Of a stretch of 24,049 bases of DNA, positions 1 through 18,621 are shown in pieces (position 1 is the stretch's first letter; every line of letters begins with the position of its first letter). Where the stretch lies: the IMG/VR virus record IMGVR_UViG_3300022907_000096, positions 1-24,049 of that record; one strand, written 5' to 3'. The position numbers and the translations under genes are program-made. The stretch comes from a virus. Below the pieces are notes generated by a model. The model searched no databases and was not told the DNA's origin. It saw only the letters and a program-made list of their open reading frames with translations.

Positions 1-672
1 GTAACAGTACCGTCTACTGGTGAGAAAGTTGACTTCAGACCTTACCTCGTAAAGGAAGAGAAGGTCTTGATGTTGGCATTTGAATCGAAAGATACTGCAC
101 AGGCAACCAAGGCAATCGGCAATACGTTGAACGCCTGTGCACAGAATGATGGATTCAATGCATTTGAGTTGACAACGTATGATGTGGAATACATCTTTAC
201 GATGTTGAGAACAAAGTCTGTAGGCGAGACTTCGAACATCATCATTCCGTGTTCGGAATGTGAACATAAGAATGACATAGTAGTCGATCTTGAAGATGTG
301 AAGATCGAAGACGGAACGATTAAACGAGATAGAGTCCAGTTGACACAAGATATTTCTGTTGACATGGCCTATCCACAGTATGGCGCATTGATGGAGATCA
401 GTGCATCGGGAGAAACTCTTCAAGACAGTATTGCTATGATCGGTACGTGTATCGACTCTATCAATACTGAGAGTGAAAGATTTGAAAGGAGTGACTTCAA
501 GAAGGAAGAACTGGAGGAATTTCTAGAGTCCTTGACTACAGATCAATTCACCAAGTTGTCTGAGTTCTTGAGAGACATACCCAAGTTGGCACATGAAGTG
601 TCGTTTACATGTGCAAGTTGTAATCATGTAAACACCACAACATTAACGGGTATGCAGGATTTTTTATCGTAA
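1..672 (+). CDS. 26: gp26-like baseplate hub / tail assembly protein, 5' end missing
   Basis: The frame is open from base 1, so the gene begins upstream of the window; the internal TTG/ATG near 67-70 is not taken as the start. The visible part is 223 residues. Its beginning (PSTGEKVDFRPYLVKEEKV) is the typical N-terminal region of T4-like gp26 proteins. Two CxxC pairs (CSEC near 249-261 and CASC near 613-624) suggest a zinc-binding knuckle. In T4, gp26 is assigned to the baseplate hub. The 0-frame stop at 670-672 comes directly after a slippery heptamer, and a gp51-like sequence follows in the -1 frame. The tape-measure candidate is next. That order matches the G/GT tail assembly chaperones of long-tailed phages, so this protein may be a tape-measure chaperone rather than a structural hub protein. 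The family call is firm; the chaperone role is inference. Confidence 0.82.
   Translation, partial: VTVPSTGEKVDFRPYLVKEEKVLMLAFESKDTAQATKAIGNTLNACAQNDGFNAFELTTYDVEYIFTMLRTKSVGETSNIIIPCSECEHKNDIVVDLEDVKIEDGTIKRDRVQLTQDISVDMAYPQYGALMEISASGETLQDSIAMIGTCIDSINTESERFERSDFKKEELEEFLESLTTDQFTKLSEFLRDIPKLAHEVSFTCASCNHVNTTTLTGMQDFLS
660..666 (+). promoter_or_regulatory. Programmed -1 ribosomal frameshift site (T_TTT_TTA)
   Basis: The heptamer TTTTTTA is phased exactly as X_XXY_YYZ in the gp26-like frame (GAT TTT TTA), three bases before the stop at 670-672. Slipping back one base enters the 62-codon frame at 666-854, which lacks a good start of its own. A 6-bp stem (690-695 with 707-712) lies about 23 bases downstream, too far to be a standard stimulator. 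An AGGA lies just 5' of the heptamer. Confidence 0.75.
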
Positions 673-854
673 ACCTTTCTCATGATAATTTGGTCAATCA
701 TTATAAGACCAATTTTTCGTTGATGCAACATCATCATTATAGTTTGACAGAACTTGAGATGATGATACCGTGGGAAAGGGAGATTTACGTTAGCATGTTA
801 ATTGATTATGTTAAGGAAGAGAATGAGAGATTAAAACAACTTAACAGGAACTAG
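666..854 (+). CDS. 51: gp51-like segment, read as a -1 frameshift extension of gp26
   Basis: After slippage, 62 codons are open from ATC at 666 to TAG at 852-854. They encode a compact helical protein containing HYKTNF, LMQHHHYSLTELE, IPWEREIYV and a charged EEENERLK-type end. This matches the short gp51 'baseplate hub assembly catalyst' of marine T4-like phages as I recall it. T4 gp51 itself is much longer. The first ATG in the frame lies about 20 codons in and would remove the conserved HYKTNF part; TTG at 690 has no ribosome binding site. Translation by frameshift from gp26 is therefore the simplest explanation, giving a gp26-gp51 fusion alongside plain gp26. The tape-measure candidate starts 3 bases after the stop. 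Confidence 0.72.
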   Translation: MVNLSHDNLVNHYKTNFSLMQHHHYSLTELEMMIPWEREIYVSMLIDYVKEENERLKQLNRN

Positions 855-857
855 GCA

Positions 858-2933
858 ATGGCCGAAAAGACATTACAAGACGTTATCGAACGAATAGTGG
901 CAGAGGGTCAGTTGACCCGAAACTCTGGCTCACATTCGATTCGTACTGTCAAAGAGATAATGAGAGAGCAGACAGAAGAAACTCGTTCTCAAACCGAGGA
1001 GTTGAAAAACGCCATCGGTAAGAGTGCGGGTGCAACTATCTCTGCGACTCGTTCCATTGCAAGTCCTGCTGGTGATGATAACCTCACTACGGGTGACGAT
1101 CTAGAAGCCCGTAGAGAAGATCAGTCTTGGCAATCCCAGACTCTCAAGTTCCTTGAAGAGATCGCTGCAAACACCGCAGGATTAGGAAGACCCGCTCCCG
1201 AAAAAGAAAAGAAAGATGGTGGCCCAACACTCATTGATATCGGTTTAGGTGCAATCCTTGCGGGTGGTGCACTAGGTGCGGCCGCTGGTATTGTCCTTGG
1301 TCAGTTGAAAGTCATCGAAACTCTGATTCCACCTATCGAAACATTGAGACGTAGACTCAGAATACTATTCAAAAGAACTATCCCTAGACAGTTTGCTCAA
1401 TTAACCAAATCAATTCGTAATAGTGTTCGTGGTCTAATTCTAGCAGCAACTATTCAGTTCGAATTGATTAGAGGAAGTTTCGTTGCTTTTGGTGAAAGGT
1501 TTCGAAAATTACTGAGACCCCTACAAGGTATCTTTGCTCCTGTAACTGATTCTGTTAGAGGGATTGGAAATTATGTTGGGAGAATCACCAAATCGTTTAC
1601 GGATGCATTTGATGAGATAGTTAAAGTATTCAGAGCAGTAAATAAATTTGCTTCTGGTACAACAAAAGTCGGTAAAGCTGTCGAACCTATTCAAGATGGT
1701 GTAAGGGCAGTCATGGGATTCTTCAAGGGGATGGGCCCAGTCTTCAAGATGGTCGCCAAAACAGTGGGTACAATCTTTAAACCCATTGGAATCATCATAA
1801 CTGTATTTGATACCATCAAAGGCGCAATGAAAGGATATGAAGAAGAAGGCATCATTGGCGCTATCAAAGGTGCAATCAAAGGTTTTGTTAACTCACTCAT
1901 CATGGCACCTCTTGATATGTTGAAGAACGGTATTGCGTGGATCATGGGCAAGTTCGGTGTTGACCCCGCAACGGTAGATGCAGTAAAGAATTTTAGTTTT
2001 ACAGAATCCTTCAACAAAATTGTAGATAGTGTATTCCAACTGCCCAAAAAGGCAATAGCATGGATAAGTGATAAGTTCACATCTATCAGTGAGACCGTTG
2101 GAGAATTCATAACCAATGTTATGGGAGACCCTGTTGGTTTCATATCAAAAATAATCGCTGCACCTTATGAACTGTTACAGAAAGGTGTCGCATGGATTCT
2201 TAGCAAACTAGGATTTGAGAATGCAGCCGAAGATGTTGAGGGTTTTGATATTGCAGGGAAGCTTAAAGAAGTTATTAGTGGTGTGATCAAACTGTTCACC
2301 GATGCAATTGACTTTTACATTGGGATTTTCACGAAAGGGGCAGACTTAATTGGTGGTCTCGTATCTGGTGACTACAGTATCAGTGACGTGTTCAAAGAAA
2401 TCCTACGTAACATCCTACCAGACCCATCGAAAGACCGTAAGTGGTATGATCCTATCGGACTTGTTCAGAGATCAATACCAAAATCCGTTTACGAGTATGC
2501 GGGTATCAATCCTGAGACAGGAGGGGTTCTTGAGGAACTTCCGGTGAGAACTCCGGAAGTCGAAGTGCCGGATACTACTGTTGCTGTCAAACCAACACTA
2601 GACGAAGAACAGTTGAAAAAAGATACCGAATCGGCACAGAGAGCAACTAGAATTGAGATTCCGCTTGAAACCAGATCACCTGTTGTGGGTGCGGCCACAG
2701 AGACCGATAATGTACGTGTTGAGAGACCCCCAGTACCTCAACGTGAAGGTGTTCGGTTACAAATGGATCAGGAACAAACCGAAAACGCACAACAACAACA
2801 GAAAGCTTCTGTGATTGCAATGCAGAGTAACGTATCTCAGTCTACGGTAAACAACACGAACGTCAACAATAACTCTTCGGTTGGTATTACAGGAACTTCA
2901 GGCGACCCGTTAGATAGGTCTTGGGGAGTATAA
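858..2933 (+). CDS. Candidate tail tape-measure protein
   Basis: 691 residues. The start is clear: ATG 3 bases after the gp51 stop, preceded by AGGAACTAGG. The protein has a charged coiled-coil-like N-terminus (about 1-110), a glycine/alanine-rich hydrophobic segment (about 125-150), a long helical middle with further hydrophobic stretches (about 290-345), and a polar Q/N-rich C-terminus (about 640-691). The phrase AWI followed by K and a helix recurs near residues 360, 401 and 445. Long helical proteins with hydrophobic patches directly downstream of the frameshifted chaperone pair are the usual tape measures; T4 gp29 is 590 residues. Alternatives are another large virion protein or a fibre-associated protein. 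The role rests on position and composition, not on a recognised domain. Confidence 0.5.
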   Translation: MAEKTLQDVIERIVAEGQLTRNSGSHSIRTVKEIMREQTEETRSQTEELKNAIGKSAGATISATRSIASPAGDDNLTTGDDLEARREDQSWQSQTLKFLEEIAANTAGLGRPAPEKEKKDGGPTLIDIGLGAILAGGALGAAAGIVLGQLKVIETLIPPIETLRRRLRILFKRTIPRQFAQLTKSIRNSVRGLILAATIQFELIRGSFVAFGERFRKLLRPLQGIFAPVTDSVRGIGNYVGRITKSFTDAFDEIVKVFRAVNKFASGTTKVGKAVEPIQDGVRAVMGFFKGMGPVFKMVAKTVGTIFKPIGIIITVFDTIKGAMKGYEEEGIIGAIKGAIKGFVNSLIMAPLDMLKNGIAWIMGKFGVDPATVDAVKNFSFTESFNKIVDSVFQLPKKAIAWISDKFTSISETVGEFITNVMGDPVGFISKIIAAPYELLQKGVAWILSKLGFENAAEDVEGFDIAGKLKEVISGVIKLFTDAIDFYIGIFTKGADLIGGLVSGDYSISDVFKEILRNILPDPSKDRKWYDPIGLVQRSIPKSVYEYAGINPETGGVLEELPVRTPEVEVPDTTVAVKPTLDEEQLKKDTESAQRATRIEIPLETRSPVVGAATETDNVRVERPPVPQREGVRLQMDQEQTENAQQQQKASVIAMQSNVSQSTVNNTNVNNNSSVGITGTSGDPLDRSWGV

Positions 2934-3943: not shown

Positions 3944-3972
3944 ATAGTAACACTATTTATATGCCGTGTCAA
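3944..3972 (-). promoter_or_regulatory. Sigma70-like early promoter of gp32
   Basis: On the - strand, -35 TTGACA (3967-3972), a 17-base spacer, and -10 TACTAT (3944-3949) preceded by TGT (an extended -10). The -35 box overlaps the 3' end of the upstream oxygenase gene. Transcription would start about 50 bases before the gp32 ATG. The late promoter sits inside its spacer. Confidence 0.72.
3954..3961 (-). promoter_or_regulatory. T4-type late promoter of gp32
   Basis: Exact TATAAATA on the - strand, about 70 bases upstream of the gp32 start codon. It matches the T4 late promoter, which is recognised by gp55 with gp33 and the sliding clamp. Confidence 0.75.
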
Positions 3973-4487
3973 GCATCTTTTAACCAAACTACCAAGGAGG
4001 TTCTTTTTCCTTGAGTTACTTCGGTTATCTCATGGTATACAGTTCTTGAATCGAAAACGACAGTCTCTCCGACTTTCAAATCAATCACTCTACCAACTTG
4101 ATCGTCTTTACCATCAAAGACGACTAGATCGCCTCCAATCAAATTATCGGACTTATCCAACAACGTGATCGTAGACCATTTTCTTTGTCTAGATTTGGGT
4201 ATGTTTCTAGACTCATCTAGGTGTTTTGTAAACTTTCCACCGAGAGTATATATCAAAATATCGAATTGGGAAACCCTTGATCCATCATTCACATGATCTT
4301 CAACCTCTCGACATGTCTCAGGGTACATATTGTAATGTGCAACTATTCTAGTAGTTTTCCTCATACTAAGATCCTTTTGTTTACTCTTAGTATCCGTATA
4401 AATGAGGGCTTCTTCTTTCGCAAACGAATCTATGGATGATAGAAGGTCTTCAATAGATTCCTTCGATAGTACCTTTACGCCAACCAT
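3969..4487 (-). CDS. 2-oxoglutarate/Fe(II)-dependent oxygenase, prolyl-4-hydroxylase type (copy A)
   Basis: 172 residues. The double-stranded beta-helix signature is present: HxD iron ligands H89/D91 in FTKHLDESRN, distal H152 in TVYHEITEV, and R162 for 2-oxoglutarate, ten residues later, in GKRTSLVVWL. GGDLVVF and KVGETVVFDS are the usual strands before the distal histidine. The expected reaction is Fe(II)- and O2-dependent hydroxylation of a protein or small-molecule substrate, with succinate and CO2 released. The substrate cannot be read from the sequence. The start overlaps the end of the paralogous oxygenase by 13 bases, so the two are probably co-translated. Such genes are common in marine T4-like phages. 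Confidence 0.85.
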   Translation of the reverse strand: MVGVKVLSKESIEDLLSSIDSFAKEEALIYTDTKSKQKDLSMRKTTRIVAHYNMYPETCREVEDHVNDGSRVSQFDILIYTLGGKFTKHLDESRNIPKSRQRKWSTITLLDKSDNLIGGDLVVFDGKDDQVGRVIDLKVGETVVFDSRTVYHEITEVTQGKRTSLVVWLKDA

Positions 4488-5053
4488 GACACAAGAACTT
4501 CCCTGTATCCACGTTCAATAAGGGTACACTCATGCACATTCGTCGCAGGAAAGAATGCTGTCTCACCAATCTCCAAATCCATCTCGTAGGGAATACCCTC
4601 ATTGAATGCAATCAGGATACCACCAACCAGATCAGGGGACTTGTCAATCATAGTGATGGCAGTCACCTTACGCACCGTGTGCGCCATCGTACCGTGAACC
4701 TCATGTTCATCATAGGTATCGATATGTCGTCTCAGGTAGTCGCCCTCGACGTACCGTAGGTAGTTGGTATCGATAACCTTGAGTCCCGCATCAGCCCATG
4801 CACATTCGAACTCAAAGTTGATATCATCAATCATGTCAGTAGTAATCACCTTGTTCATACTATGACGAATCTTTTCACCACGGTAGTCCGCAGTATATTC
4901 CTCGTGGTTACCATTATTCAATCGATCAAGGTAACCATATTCACAAGAACCCTTTGTCAGGTGCGAAGTCAACCAAGGAGCTTCTAACTCCCGCAAGTCT
5001 TGCACCTGTTCGTCTGTGAGTACTCGTTTAACTGAGGGTTTGAATTTAAACAT
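4475..5053 (-). CDS. 2-oxoglutarate/Fe(II)-dependent oxygenase, prolyl-4-hydroxylase type (copy B)
   Basis: 192 residues, with the same fold as its downstream neighbour: H110/D112 in YLRRHIDTYDE, distal H174 in ATNVHECTLIE, and R184 in GYREVLVSWL. LVGGILIAF and EIGETAFFPA precede the distal histidine. The two proteins are clearly diverged paralogues: both end in VVWL/VSWL-type strands and carry IDKSPDLVGG or LDKSDNLIGG before the last strands. The ATG overlaps the gp33 stop by 8 bases and is preceded by AGGAA. The substrate is unknown; a protein hydroxylase is the usual guess. Confidence 0.85.
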   Translation of the reverse strand: MFKFKPSVKRVLTDEQVQDLRELEAPWLTSHLTKGSCEYGYLDRLNNGNHEEYTADYRGEKIRHSMNKVITTDMIDDINFEFECAWADAGLKVIDTNYLRYVEGDYLRRHIDTYDEHEVHGTMAHTVRKVTAITMIDKSPDLVGGILIAFNEGIPYEMDLEIGETAFFPATNVHECTLIERGYREVLVSWLA

Positions 5054-14203: not shown

Positions 14204-14852
14204 TACTCATTTGCTCCCTTATAACGTCTTTACCTTTTTGACCAGTGTGGTGAACAATTAACGGGTCTTTGACCGCAGTATTGTCCAAATAATCTAGTCG
14301 TAGTGTATTGTATTTATGCGGCAATGGTTCTATGATTGACATCTTCATAATCTCATCACCACCCATCATTGCATACAATGTCTCCTGATCACCCTGCCAA
14401 GGATCACTAATACACTGTTCTGCCCATGCACGGAGGATATTGGGTTTACCTTCCCAAACCACAACACCAGAGTTGTACCATGTACCGTAATCGCCACGTC
14501 TGCGAGTCCACGGTCTATCTTCCACCATACCAATCTTGAAAGGTACGGTCAGGTCAAAGATGTCGGAGATGTCTCCTAGAACTTCACAGTCAGTATCCAA
14601 CCAACAGACTTTGTGTGCTTCTTCACACGCACGTAACATCGCAGAAGGTTTCTTGAACCATCCGTCTGCCTGAGTGTGTAGTAGAATAGACTCACCAATC
14701 TCCTTGTCAACCCATTGACGCATCTCATCGGACATACCAAAGTCGATGACCTTCAATGGGGTCTTGTTGGTCTCACGAAAGTTGTCCCAAAACCAAGGGA
14801 GTTGCCATTCTGTGTTTACATCACATCCAGTGATGAATAACTTATCAATCAT
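14196..14852 (-). CDS. GT8-like glycosyltransferase
   Basis: 218 residues from ATG 14852 (GGAG just upstream; a longer open frame to 14942 overlaps the sulfotransferase gene and is rejected). VCWLDTDCEVL carries the DxD metal/nucleotide-sugar motif (D86, D88); GTWYNSGVVVW is the family's 'N-S/T-G-V' strand; LIVHHTGQKGK near the end is the H-x-x-G-x-K motif of GT8 enzymes. The enzyme would transfer a sugar from a nucleotide-sugar donor. The acceptor is unknown; cassette mates imply a surface glycan or a virion protein. The end overlaps the spanin gene. Confidence 0.74.
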   Translation of the reverse strand: MIDKLFITGCDVNTEWQLPWFWDNFRETNKTPLKVIDFGMSDEMRQWVDKEIGESILLHTQADGWFKKPSAMLRACEEAHKVCWLDTDCEVLGDISDIFDLTVPFKIGMVEDRPWTRRRGDYGTWYNSGVVVWEGKPNILRAWAEQCISDPWQGDQETLYAMMGGDEIMKMSIIEPLPHKYNTLRLDYLDNTAVKDPLIVHHTGQKGKDVIREQMSNV

Positions 14853-15471
14853 ATTCTCCGTATCCAAATTCATTAAAAGTTTCGGAATCAATCTCACGTA
14901 TTTCGGCAAGAAACTCCTTCGGGATGGACTCGTGTGCATCAACCAAGCTTGTGTCCACTCCCTGATAATTATATCTATAGGTATCTAATCTATTGGTAGT
15001 CTGGAATATAGGTTGTAACTTAACCGCAACTTCATTCACCAAATCTTCATGTCGAAGAATAATGTCACACCCCTTCCAGTAAATAGTTTGGGGTCTTCTG
15101 AAGGCTTGAATTTGATTAATGTTGCCGGGCCCTTCCCAAAATTTCCTAAAAGATATTTGATCCTTCCTTGCTTTGTCACGATTTATGTACCGCCAAAAAC
15201 TTAGGTATCTCATATAAGGGTGTCTAACTATACATACCGTCTTATCAATCTTAAACGGTTCACCGTTAATATGTAAAGACATCATCTTATCACGGGCATG
15301 GTGTTGTCTAAACTTATAACTATCCCACTCTGGTTTTTTGTTATCATAAAGCCAACCATTCAAGGAAGACCCACCCGTCCTTGGATTATGAATAAAACCA
15401 AGTGTACCGTGTTCTTTCATATCAATGATTTGAGAACCAGCAATCTTCTCAGGAGAGTTAATTTCCAACAT
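14845..15471 (-). CDS. Sulfotransferase family protein
   Basis: 208 residues. LGFIHNPRTGGSSL (about 24-37) is the 5'-phosphosulfate loop of the Sulfotransfer_2 type, and CIVRHPYMRYLSFWR (about 80-94) holds the arginine and serine of the 3'-phosphate site; the spacing between them is normal. It would move a sulfate from PAPS to a sugar or other hydroxyl. The start overlaps the end of the GT25-like gene by 14 bases and the end overlaps the GT8-like gene by 8. No PAPS synthesis gene is in the window, so PAPS would come from the host. Confidence 0.78.
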   Translation of the reverse strand: MLEINSPEKIAGSQIIDMKEHGTLGFIHNPRTGGSSLNGWLYDNKKPEWDSYKFRQHHARDKMMSLHINGEPFKIDKTVCIVRHPYMRYLSFWRYINRDKARKDQISFRKFWEGPGNINQIQAFRRPQTIYWKGCDIILRHEDLVNEVAVKLQPIFQTTNRLDTYRYNYQGVDTSLVDAHESIPKEFLAEIREIDSETFNEFGYGEYD

Positions 15472-16111
15472 TTAGAATCTCATAGTCTTGATTATAATTG
15501 TGTTTCGCAAGGCAACCACGTTCTACCTGAATTGTTGTAAAACTATCATCAGCCTTAGCAATGAATGGATAATGTTCTTGCAACCAAGAGAAAGTGTCCA
15601 TAGACAAAAACACGTCTGTCGGTTTCGCAAACACCTTTGCCTGTCTAATCAGTGACTCTGCGCCACGTGGATTTACCTGATATGCATGAGCGCCTGGAAA
15701 GTACCTCTTAGTAGTCAGTGGGCCTGTTCCAAGGTGTTGGGGTGTAATGAACTTACCATAACTAGGTTCACCGATATTCATACAACCCACAAATGGTTTG
15801 TTAGGAACGGGTTCAAGTAATACGGCATCATGTTCAAATATGGTGATGGGTGTATTCAATCGGATACACTTCTTCCACAAACTATAGTGAGATAGGAATG
15901 CAGAGAGACAGTTGAGGTAACGTGAGTACACCTCTTCGAACCCACGAGGATCGATACCCTCTCGTTCTGCAATCTTTTCAGGATCGTCATTTGGAGTTAC
16001 CGCATGGAATTTTTCAATGAAGGTGTTGTTCCTAACTCCAGAACGAATACAACGTTCCGCAGCTTCTACAGACTTTTCATTGTCCATGATAGTGATTACA
16101 TAGTTTTTCAT
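15458..16111 (-). CDS. GT25-like glycosyltransferase
   Basis: 217 residues. The GT25 pattern is clear: a YVITIMDNEKSVEAAERC start, LSHYSLWKKCI, then PITIFEHDAVLLEPVP with the E-x-D metal motif (E93, D95), and YQVNPRGAESLI, a typical downstream segment. LPS-type beta-galactosyl or glucosyl transfer is the family role. ATG 16111 shares ATGA with the co-chaperonin stop, so they are coupled. Confidence 0.78.
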   Translation of the reverse strand: MKNYVITIMDNEKSVEAAERCIRSGVRNNTFIEKFHAVTPNDDPEKIAEREGIDPRGFEEVYSRYLNCLSAFLSHYSLWKKCIRLNTPITIFEHDAVLLEPVPNKPFVGCMNIGEPSYGKFITPQHLGTGPLTTKRYFPGAHAYQVNPRGAESLIRQAKVFAKPTDVFLSMDTFSWLQEHYPFIAKADDSFTTIQVERGCLAKHNYNQDYEILNVGN

Positions 16112-17306: not shown

Positions 17307-17999
17307 TCATATCCAGTAATTCTTCGTTGCTCCGGTATCGAAATCAAATCCCCAGTGATCAATGTCCTTCTTATACCAATCAGCAATGATTTGAATCGTC
17401 TTGTCGGTGTACATATCTTGATACGTACCTTTATGTAGGTTTGTCACATTGCGAGGTTCTGGATTGAACAATACACCAAAGTAATCCTTGACATCCTCAT
17501 TGTAGTTTTCAAATCGAAGGATGTCACATCTTACCTTACCATCTTTATCACAGACATGATCGTATGCCGGATACCAACCACGGACTGCACGATGCCACAT
17601 GTACTCTTCGCCACCCCACTTGTGACGTTCTTCCAGAAAGGCCTCAAACGAAGACACGTCTGCATAGTTCTTCTGACCGTAGACGTTGGAGTCTTTCTCC
17701 ACCTCAATAACTTTCTTTGCAAAGAAGTATCGGGATACCACACGAGACCAAGGGTTGCGAACAATCGCAAAGGCACGATAGTTATCACGAATCTCTGGTT
17801 TGACATCTCTCCACCGTGCGTGTTCGTAACCCATATCGTCGCCAGTCTGTCTCATCTTTTCTTCCAGACCTTTCGTGTACTCCCTGTTCTTGTGGTGATT
17901 GGGAGTACAAGGAATAATCATCTTACGCAGTTCTGCGTTGCGACGAATGGTCATACCCCCGTTCTTAGGGATATGAATGAACAACTTACTCGACACCAT
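17307..17999 (-). CDS. Sulfotransferase family protein
   Basis: 230 residues. LFIHIPKNGGMTIRR (6-20) is a textbook PAPS 5' loop (H-I-P-K-x-G-G), and IVRNPWSRVVSRYFF (79-93) the 3' site with R81 and S89. LRFENYNEDVKDYFG and a C-terminal YKKDIDHWGFDF are as in Sulfotransfer_2 proteins such as heparan/chondroitin-type enzymes. The start lies within the end of the methyltransferase gene (14-base overlap). Confidence 0.82.
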   Translation of the reverse strand: MVSSKLFIHIPKNGGMTIRRNAELRKMIIPCTPNHHKNREYTKGLEEKMRQTGDDMGYEHARWRDVKPEIRDNYRAFAIVRNPWSRVVSRYFFAKKVIEVEKDSNVYGQKNYADVSSFEAFLEERHKWGGEEYMWHRAVRGWYPAYDHVCDKDGKVRCDILRFENYNEDVKDYFGVLFNPEPRNVTNLHKGTYQDMYTDKTIQIIADWYKKDIDHWGFDFDTGATKNYWI

Positions 18000-18621
18000 A
18001 CTTAACTCTCAGAATGTAACCGTCCGGATATGCACCAGAACCAGCAACAGTTGTAGTACGGTAGTCATAGTGTTTAACGTCAAACTGTTCAACCGTATTC
18101 ATGAATCTAACATGTTCGGGCATACTGTAGAGTTGAGGTCTTGCATCCACCCACGGATGACTCTTCATTCTATCCAACATCCACACGTCTTCTATGAAGT
18201 ATGCACCGTCTTCCTTTAGAAACTGCATACAGTTTTCGAAGGTCAGTCTGTTTGCCTGAGGCCAGTGTGCACCATCATCGATGATGAAATCGAACTCAAC
18301 ATCACCCCACTCCTTTCTCATTTTCATAGGAAGAGAGGCATTCATACTGTCCGCTTTCAACCACTTGACACGTTCTTCCTTGAGGACATCGATATCATCC
18401 GGAGTGTGTCTCTCAAAAATATCGATTGTGTAAATAGTGGCATGAGGAAAATATTCGAGCCACGCCCAAGTACTCTCACCCCGAAAACAACCGATCTCAA
18501 GAATATTGAGTTGATCGTGTCGTCGGTCTGCCATATATGGCTCGTAACAACGGTCGTACTTGTGTTTCTTGGTGCCTTTGTCGCACTCATACTTGTCGAA
18601 TAATTCTCTTAACGTTCCCAT
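17986..18621 (-). CDS. Class I methyltransferase, Methyltransf_24 / TylF-like
   Basis: 211 residues. DKGTKKHKYDRCYEPYM followed by LNILEIGCFRGESTWAWLEYFP (SAM motif I, about 39-60), IYTIDIF (motif II acid), EFDFIIDDGAHWP (about 107-122, metal/catalytic acids) and FLKEDGAYFIEDV (motif for the C-terminal strand). This is the pattern of macrolide/rhamnosyl O-methyltransferases. O-methylation of a sugar is therefore likely. It overlaps the preceding methyltransferase gene by 13 bases. Confidence 0.8.
   Translation of the reverse strand: MGTLRELFDKYECDKGTKKHKYDRCYEPYMADRRHDQLNILEIGCFRGESTWAWLEYFPHATIYTIDIFERHTPDDIDVLKEERVKWLKADSMNASLPMKMRKEWGDVEFDFIIDDGAHWPQANRLTFENCMQFLKEDGAYFIEDVWMLDRMKSHPWVDARPQLYSMPEHVRFMNTVEQFDVKHYDYRTTTVAGSGAYPDGYILRVKYGVE

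Follow-up and report, generated by a model that had tools for sequence, protein, structure and literature searches.

Does the gp26-like gene at the left end of this viral sequence, together with the gp51-like frame behind it, represent two baseplate genes or a single gene that is read in two ways? The window, by which we mean the whole stretch of 24,049 nucleotides that was analysed, comes from an uncultured marine phage. An earlier note on it had proposed that the two frames are joined by a programmed -1 frameshift immediately upstream of a tape-measure candidate, and that they encode tail assembly chaperones of the lambda G/GT type. The features on which the question turns all lie on the plus strand.

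1-672, plus strand: gp26-like gene of the T4_baseplate family, putative short form (TAC-N); PF12322 E 6e-56, phrog_150 E 1e-54
624-854, plus strand: -1 open frame, which from 666 on is the gp51-like C-terminal extension (putative TAC-C, 62 codons); phrog_634 E 1.1e-25
646-651, plus strand: ACGGGT, at the site of the SD-like stimulator of relatives (usually GAGGGA or AAGGGG), weak in the window; synonymous-recoding z
660-666, plus strand: slippery heptamer T_TTT_TTA, in the correct phase for gp26; sequence
670-672, plus strand: zero-frame stop TAA of gp26; sequence
682-720, plus strand: hairpin 3' of the slip site, arms 682-695 and 707-720; fold, synonymous recoding and pair counts
858-2933, plus strand: tape-measure-like protein of 691 aa, presumed chaperone client; phrog_305 E 1.2e-10, phrog_1272 E 1.6e-8

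The gp26 zero frame occupies positions 1-669 and lacks its 5' end at the window edge, with about 13-14 residues fewer than in the otherwise identical locus L001, whose full-length short form is about 236 aa. Its PF12322 score of 190 bits exceeds the curated cut-off of 24.5. The gene ends with the codons ATG CAG GAT TTT TTA TCG TAA, so that the stop begins 4 bases past the heptamer, as had been claimed. Among the 5,550 codons in the longer ORFs of the window, an in-frame T_TTT_TT occurs once, at the end of gp26 only. The -1 frame contributes 62 residues, IVNLSH...NRN, from ATC 666-668 to position 851, and is closed by TAG 852-854; the phrog_634 family that it matches is labelled 'baseplate hub assembly catalyst'. 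The statement that this frame lies exactly at -1 without a convincing start was confirmed: a scan of the -1 frame of the window found no ATG in the gp51 frame, and the sole candidate start, TTG 690, exhibits no Shine-Dalgarno site (+0.6 kcal/mol). The tape-measure-like ORF opens with ATG 858, 3 bases past the gp51-frame stop, which bears out its proposed position. Annotated relatives exhibit the same order, although a single small ORF sometimes separates gp26-gp51 from the tape-measure gene.

We consider it very probable that gp26 and the gp26-51 fusion are the products of one gene with a -1 programmed frameshift, and that they constitute a tail assembly chaperone pair of the G/GT type. The first line of evidence is the conservation of the junction. 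Viral contigs were scanned with the 62-residue gp51 peptide, yielding 80 loci, with gp26 identities down to about 40%. Every one of them exhibits gp51 at -1 relative to gp26 and a GAT TTT TTN sequence 0-1 codons ahead of the stop. The set was then widened to 182 loci with P-SSM2-like loci and isolates, including S-PM2, P-SSM2, KVP40, Vibrio D482/F86, phiM12, Cr30, pf16, RL2RES, phiM9, RHph_Y68, Atu_ph04, ORM_20, HTVC008M and others. In this comparison of relatives, which the earlier note had recommended, the -1 phase is present in 182 of 182 relatives, and NNT TTT TTN lies no more than two codons from the gp26 stop in 181 of 182. The sole relative without the heptamer is L109, which has an intact gp51 but lacks some 110 nt at the 3' end of gp26, around position 1896; this is probably a deletion or an assembly fault and not a counterexample. 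A further six distant loci all contain the heptamer. The longest run is found in HTVC008M, near position 2475 of its locus, where the slip site consists of eight T followed by AA and the stop abuts the heptamer region.

Clustering at 85% DNA identity reduced the 182 loci to 100 representatives. Among these, the residue ahead of the slip codons is Ser in 41, Asp in 34, Ala in 15 and Asn in 10, and the third base of its codon is always T. The first slip codon is TTT in all 100, while TTC accounts for a third of the Phe codons of these genes. The log10 P of this fixed T/TTT usage is -41 when the loci are treated as independent, which over-counts, as the phages are related. A nucleotide that is constant while the residue varies is the signature of a slip site and not of a protein.

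With regard to the region upstream of the heptamer, most relatives exhibit an AGGG or GGAGG motif at a distance of 6-10 nt. Pairing with the 16S anti-SD was computed in the 24 nt upstream of the heptamer and compared with that of synonymous recodings. For the 100 representatives the mean is -7.65 kcal/mol, against -5.52 for the recodings (mean z -1.4), with a peak 6-10 nt before the heptamer, whereas six control windows along gp26 gave z values of 0.0 to +0.5. The signal is strongest in the cyanophage clade (B, z -2.0) and lower in the clade of the window (A, z -1.0); the window's own element is no better than synonymous recoding (z -0.4). It is the choice of GAG and GGG codons that drives the SD-like signal: Glu at codon -5 is encoded by GAG in 63 cases and by GAA in 6, compared with a GAG usage of 33%, and GGG is used in 24 of 98 cases, compared with a usage of 6%.

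Downstream of the heptamer, the strongest part of the window hairpin is formed by UUGGUC (690-695) and GACCAA (707-712). Its z is -2.4 to -2.7 relative to synonymous recoding with the codon usage of the clade, and that of the window clade is -2.3. Over this clade, the helix comprises 12 pairs, with 90.9% of the cells paired and three pairs changed on both sides. It begins 15 nt past the heptamer, or 23 nt if only the strong part is considered, which is longer than the usual 5-9 nt. The cyanophage clade exhibits an 11-bp hairpin, AGUAUGGCUCA...UGAGUCAUACU, about five nt past the heptamer, with a stability z of -5.0 relative to synonymous recoding in the -1 frame. In both clades, 91-92% of the cells of the helix are paired, the both-side changes exceed those of all shuffles, and slid controls mostly collapse; nevertheless, the covariation is modest, as each helix contains only two to three pairs of this kind. 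The same slip site is therefore accompanied by different hairpins in two related lineages, at 5 nt in the cyanophages and at 15-23 nt in the window clade. From the sequences, it looks as if the stimulator had been replaced between lineages while the heptamer stayed. A search of the junction in Rfam returned no known RNA family. A pseudoknot in the window clade between AUGAUAAU and the hairpin loop AUCAUUAU, noticed by eye, was rejected, because relatives do not share the sequence and the loop joining the two stems seems too short.

The arrangement found in the window family, with an SD-like element, a slippery heptamer and a downstream hairpin, is that of the -1 cassette of E. coli dnaX. The heptamer is different, however, the window's own SD-like element is weak, and the frameshifted product is truncated in dnaX, whereas it is extended here. 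What the window would share with lambda gpG/gpGT and HK97 gp13 is a short product and its -1 extension, encoded immediately ahead of the tape measure. The lambda heptamer is G GGA AAG, while that of the window is of the T TTT TTN type, and no significant sequence similarity of the window pair to lambda gpG/gpGT or HK97 gp13 was seen.

The second line of evidence comes from T4, in which genes 26 and 51 are located on opposite strands. T4 gp51, which is 249 aa long, gives a PF12322 match that spans residues 1-201, an end-to-end match to phrog_150 and, at the C-terminus, a match to phrog_634. In a profile built from 100 virtual fusions, T4-type gp51 proteins align with no gap at the junction, whereas the match of T4 gp26 is confined to the short form and ends at model position 236, which is the slip position. 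As judged from these alignments, T4 carries the short and the long products as two genes: its gp26 corresponds to the short form and its gp51 to the fusion. Unlike the window, T4 has two opposite-strand genes and no slippery site, as gene 26 ends with GAG TTC TTT GAG TTA CTA TAA, a sequence that interrupts the slippery run and leaves no open -1 frame. The equation of the short marine 'gp51' with T4 gp51, made in the earlier note, does not hold, since the marine 'gp51' is only the C-terminal extension of T4 gp51, and it is the whole gp26-gp51 fusion that corresponds to the T4 protein.

Confident AlphaFold2 models were obtained, with pLDDT values of 89.6 for the full-length gp26 of L001, identical to the window protein over their overlap, and 88.5 for a T4-type gp51. 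A Foldseek search of the PDB with the gp26 model gave no significant match (E 0.65, probability 0.66). When PDB chains were re-aligned to gp26 (VIA-align, 41 matches), the uncharacterised protein 3fgx (Z 6.7) ranked first and the HK97 tail assembly chaperone 2ob9 (Z 6.0) second, each over about 86 residues at the N-terminus, the next value being 4.9. The superposition with 2ob9 has an rmsd of 3.6 over 86 N-terminal residues at 13% identity, with Z below 8. The predicted N-terminal fold of gp26 bears a modest resemblance to that of the HK97 chaperone, which is suggestive but not proof. The part of the gp26 model aligned with 2ob9 comprises its N-terminal 87 residues, and an extra domain follows after residue 90.

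Could gp51 be translated from a start codon of its own? Relatives with such a start, which the earlier note had regarded as evidence against frameshifting, do exist on the face of it, since an ATG lies close behind the gp26 stop in 65 of the 100 representatives (at stop+2 in 9, at stop+5 in 56). However, these ATGs lack a Shine-Dalgarno site, with a mean energy of -0.6 that is the weakest of the site classes tested (random gp26 sites, -2.1); most of them sit in a hairpin arm, and the heptamer is retained in all ATG-bearing representatives. In the cyanophage clade, the ATG is paired within the 5' arm of the hairpin, and it is this ATG, inside the hairpin and without a Shine-Dalgarno site, that many cyanophage records annotate as the start of gp51. 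In 32 of the 100 representatives, namely the window and 31 others, the junction region examined contains no ATG. Given the weak SD energies, the absence of the ATG in these 32 and its position in the cyanophage hairpin, an own start is not the conserved feature of gp51, and an independent start is, on the sequence evidence, not the main route to this protein.

Some free gp51 may nevertheless be made in the ATG-bearing lineages. Frameshifting and a little independent gp51 synthesis could operate together there, as an ATG at a fixed place in 65% of the representatives would suggest; we consider this unlikely, as it is impossible in the lineage of the window, the SD is weak, the ATG is buried in the hairpin, and the ATG may be retained only because it pairs with the conserved 3' arm. 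In a more elaborate form, with slightly poorer prospects still, the hairpin of the ATG-keeping lineages would both stimulate the -1 shift and hide the ATG. Free gp51 would then be a third product, made when translating ribosomes open the hairpin, so that the proportions of the three forms (short, long and free) would be linked. The lineage of the window would have lost this third product.

If gp51 were exclusively a separate protein, it would have to arise by termination-reinitiation at the ATG beside the gp26 stop (TAATG or TGATG, or an ATG five bases downstream), and the T run would reflect a conserved D-F-F/L protein end. Many records are annotated in this way, and TAATG coupling alone would place gp51 at -1. 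This is very improbable, because 32 representatives are devoid of an ATG near the junction and the ATG-bearing lineages retain the heptamer. Moreover, the residue before the Phe varies (D, S, A, N) under a constant third-base T, the pairing energies and the cyanophage hairpin disfavour initiation, and in T4 gp51 the two parts are covalently joined, with an ungapped junction. Slippage of the RNA polymerase on the T run, instead of the ribosome, is more improbable again. The run comprises six T and up to eight in HTVC008M, and a run of six is short for an RNA polymerase to slip on efficiently; in addition, the run keeps its codon phase and has ribosome-specific stimulators on either side. A sequencing error or a decayed gene, for which nothing beyond the split frame itself was found, can be dismissed together with a chance heptamer, as the same arrangement recurs in 182 independent contigs and isolates.

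The sequence itself shows the frame, the heptamer, its conservation, the stimulatory elements, the paralogy with T4 gp26 and gp51, the position of the pair and the fold resemblance; slippage, its rate and the chaperone function of the products are inferred. Most ribosomes would read gp26 and stop at 670, yielding the short form. A minority, with tRNAs on TTT TTA (661-666), would slip back by one base onto TTT TTT and go on in the -1 frame, yielding a fusion that is about 60 residues longer (...GMQDFL-IVNLSHDN...). In most relatives, the AGGG or GGAGG that pairs with the anti-SD and the downstream hairpin probably raise the shift rate, while in the window this would be left to the hairpin and a weak upstream element. 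If the pair acts as lambda gpG/gpGT do (PMC5009743), the domain common to both forms would coat the tape-measure protein, the product of the next gene, and the extension at the C-terminus, which is less abundant, would bring in the subunits of the tail tube.

The chaperone assignment of the earlier note is therefore supported by conservation, stimulatory elements, T4 paralogy and fold match, although it is not new. T4 gp26 and gp51 have been listed as hub assembly chaperones, with conflicting views on the presence of gp26 in the hub, in an account limited to T4 (PMC3004832), and a 2016 review describes G-T frameshifting as widespread in long-tailed phages 'except T4' (PMC5009743). Frameshifting of T4-like tail assembly chaperones was published in 2022 by Vladimirov, Gautam and Davidson (PMID 34826709; cited in PMC10885494 and PMC12846349). 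As cited there, some T4-like phages encode the short form in a gene of its own and the long form in a fused gene (Vladimirov et al. 2022 via PMC10885494). As far as these citing accounts go, the systems are of the same family and position as the window pair, with a poly-T site in the short-form gene and a long form made by frameshift in some groups; the window differs in belonging to an uncultured marine phage. The 2022 abstract reportedly names genes 26 and 51 and describes frameshifting as conserved in several T4-like groups. The frameshift proposal is thus right but was already published, and the present analysis contributes a map of the SD-like element and of both types of hairpin, together with the location of the annotated ATG inside one of them.

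For annotation, the 'baseplate hub subunit gp26' and the 'hub assembly catalyst gp51' of marine T4-like phages would be one frameshifted chaperone gene, so that many public records are probably mis-split or omit the gp51 part, and in some the annotated start codon is a methionine buried in the hairpin. The family would also offer a natural contrast between lineages that make the long form by frameshift and T4 relatives that have two separate genes. Several public records, namely L186 (S-CAM1, 2501-2688), L193 (ACG-2014d, 2501-2685), L182 and L183, carry no annotation for the gp51 region, so that a gap seems to separate gp26 from the ORF on the tape-measure side. Within positions 1-2933 of the window, the gp51 segment at about 700-790 is the sole part for which similarity to the DNA of cultured cyanophages was detected (72-84% over 76-140 bases), and is more conserved than gp26.

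After the tape-measure-like ORF the coding strand switches, and positions 2964-23961 are occupied by a minus-strand block that begins with a gp32-like single-stranded DNA-binding protein and continues with mostly unassigned ORFs. This block exhibits two or three 2OG-Fe(II) oxygenase matches (3969-4487, 4475-5053 and, more weakly, 15458-16111), two sulfotransferase-like ORFs (14845-15471 and 17307-17999) and a methyltransferase (17986-18621), which perhaps form a glycan or surface-modification cluster.
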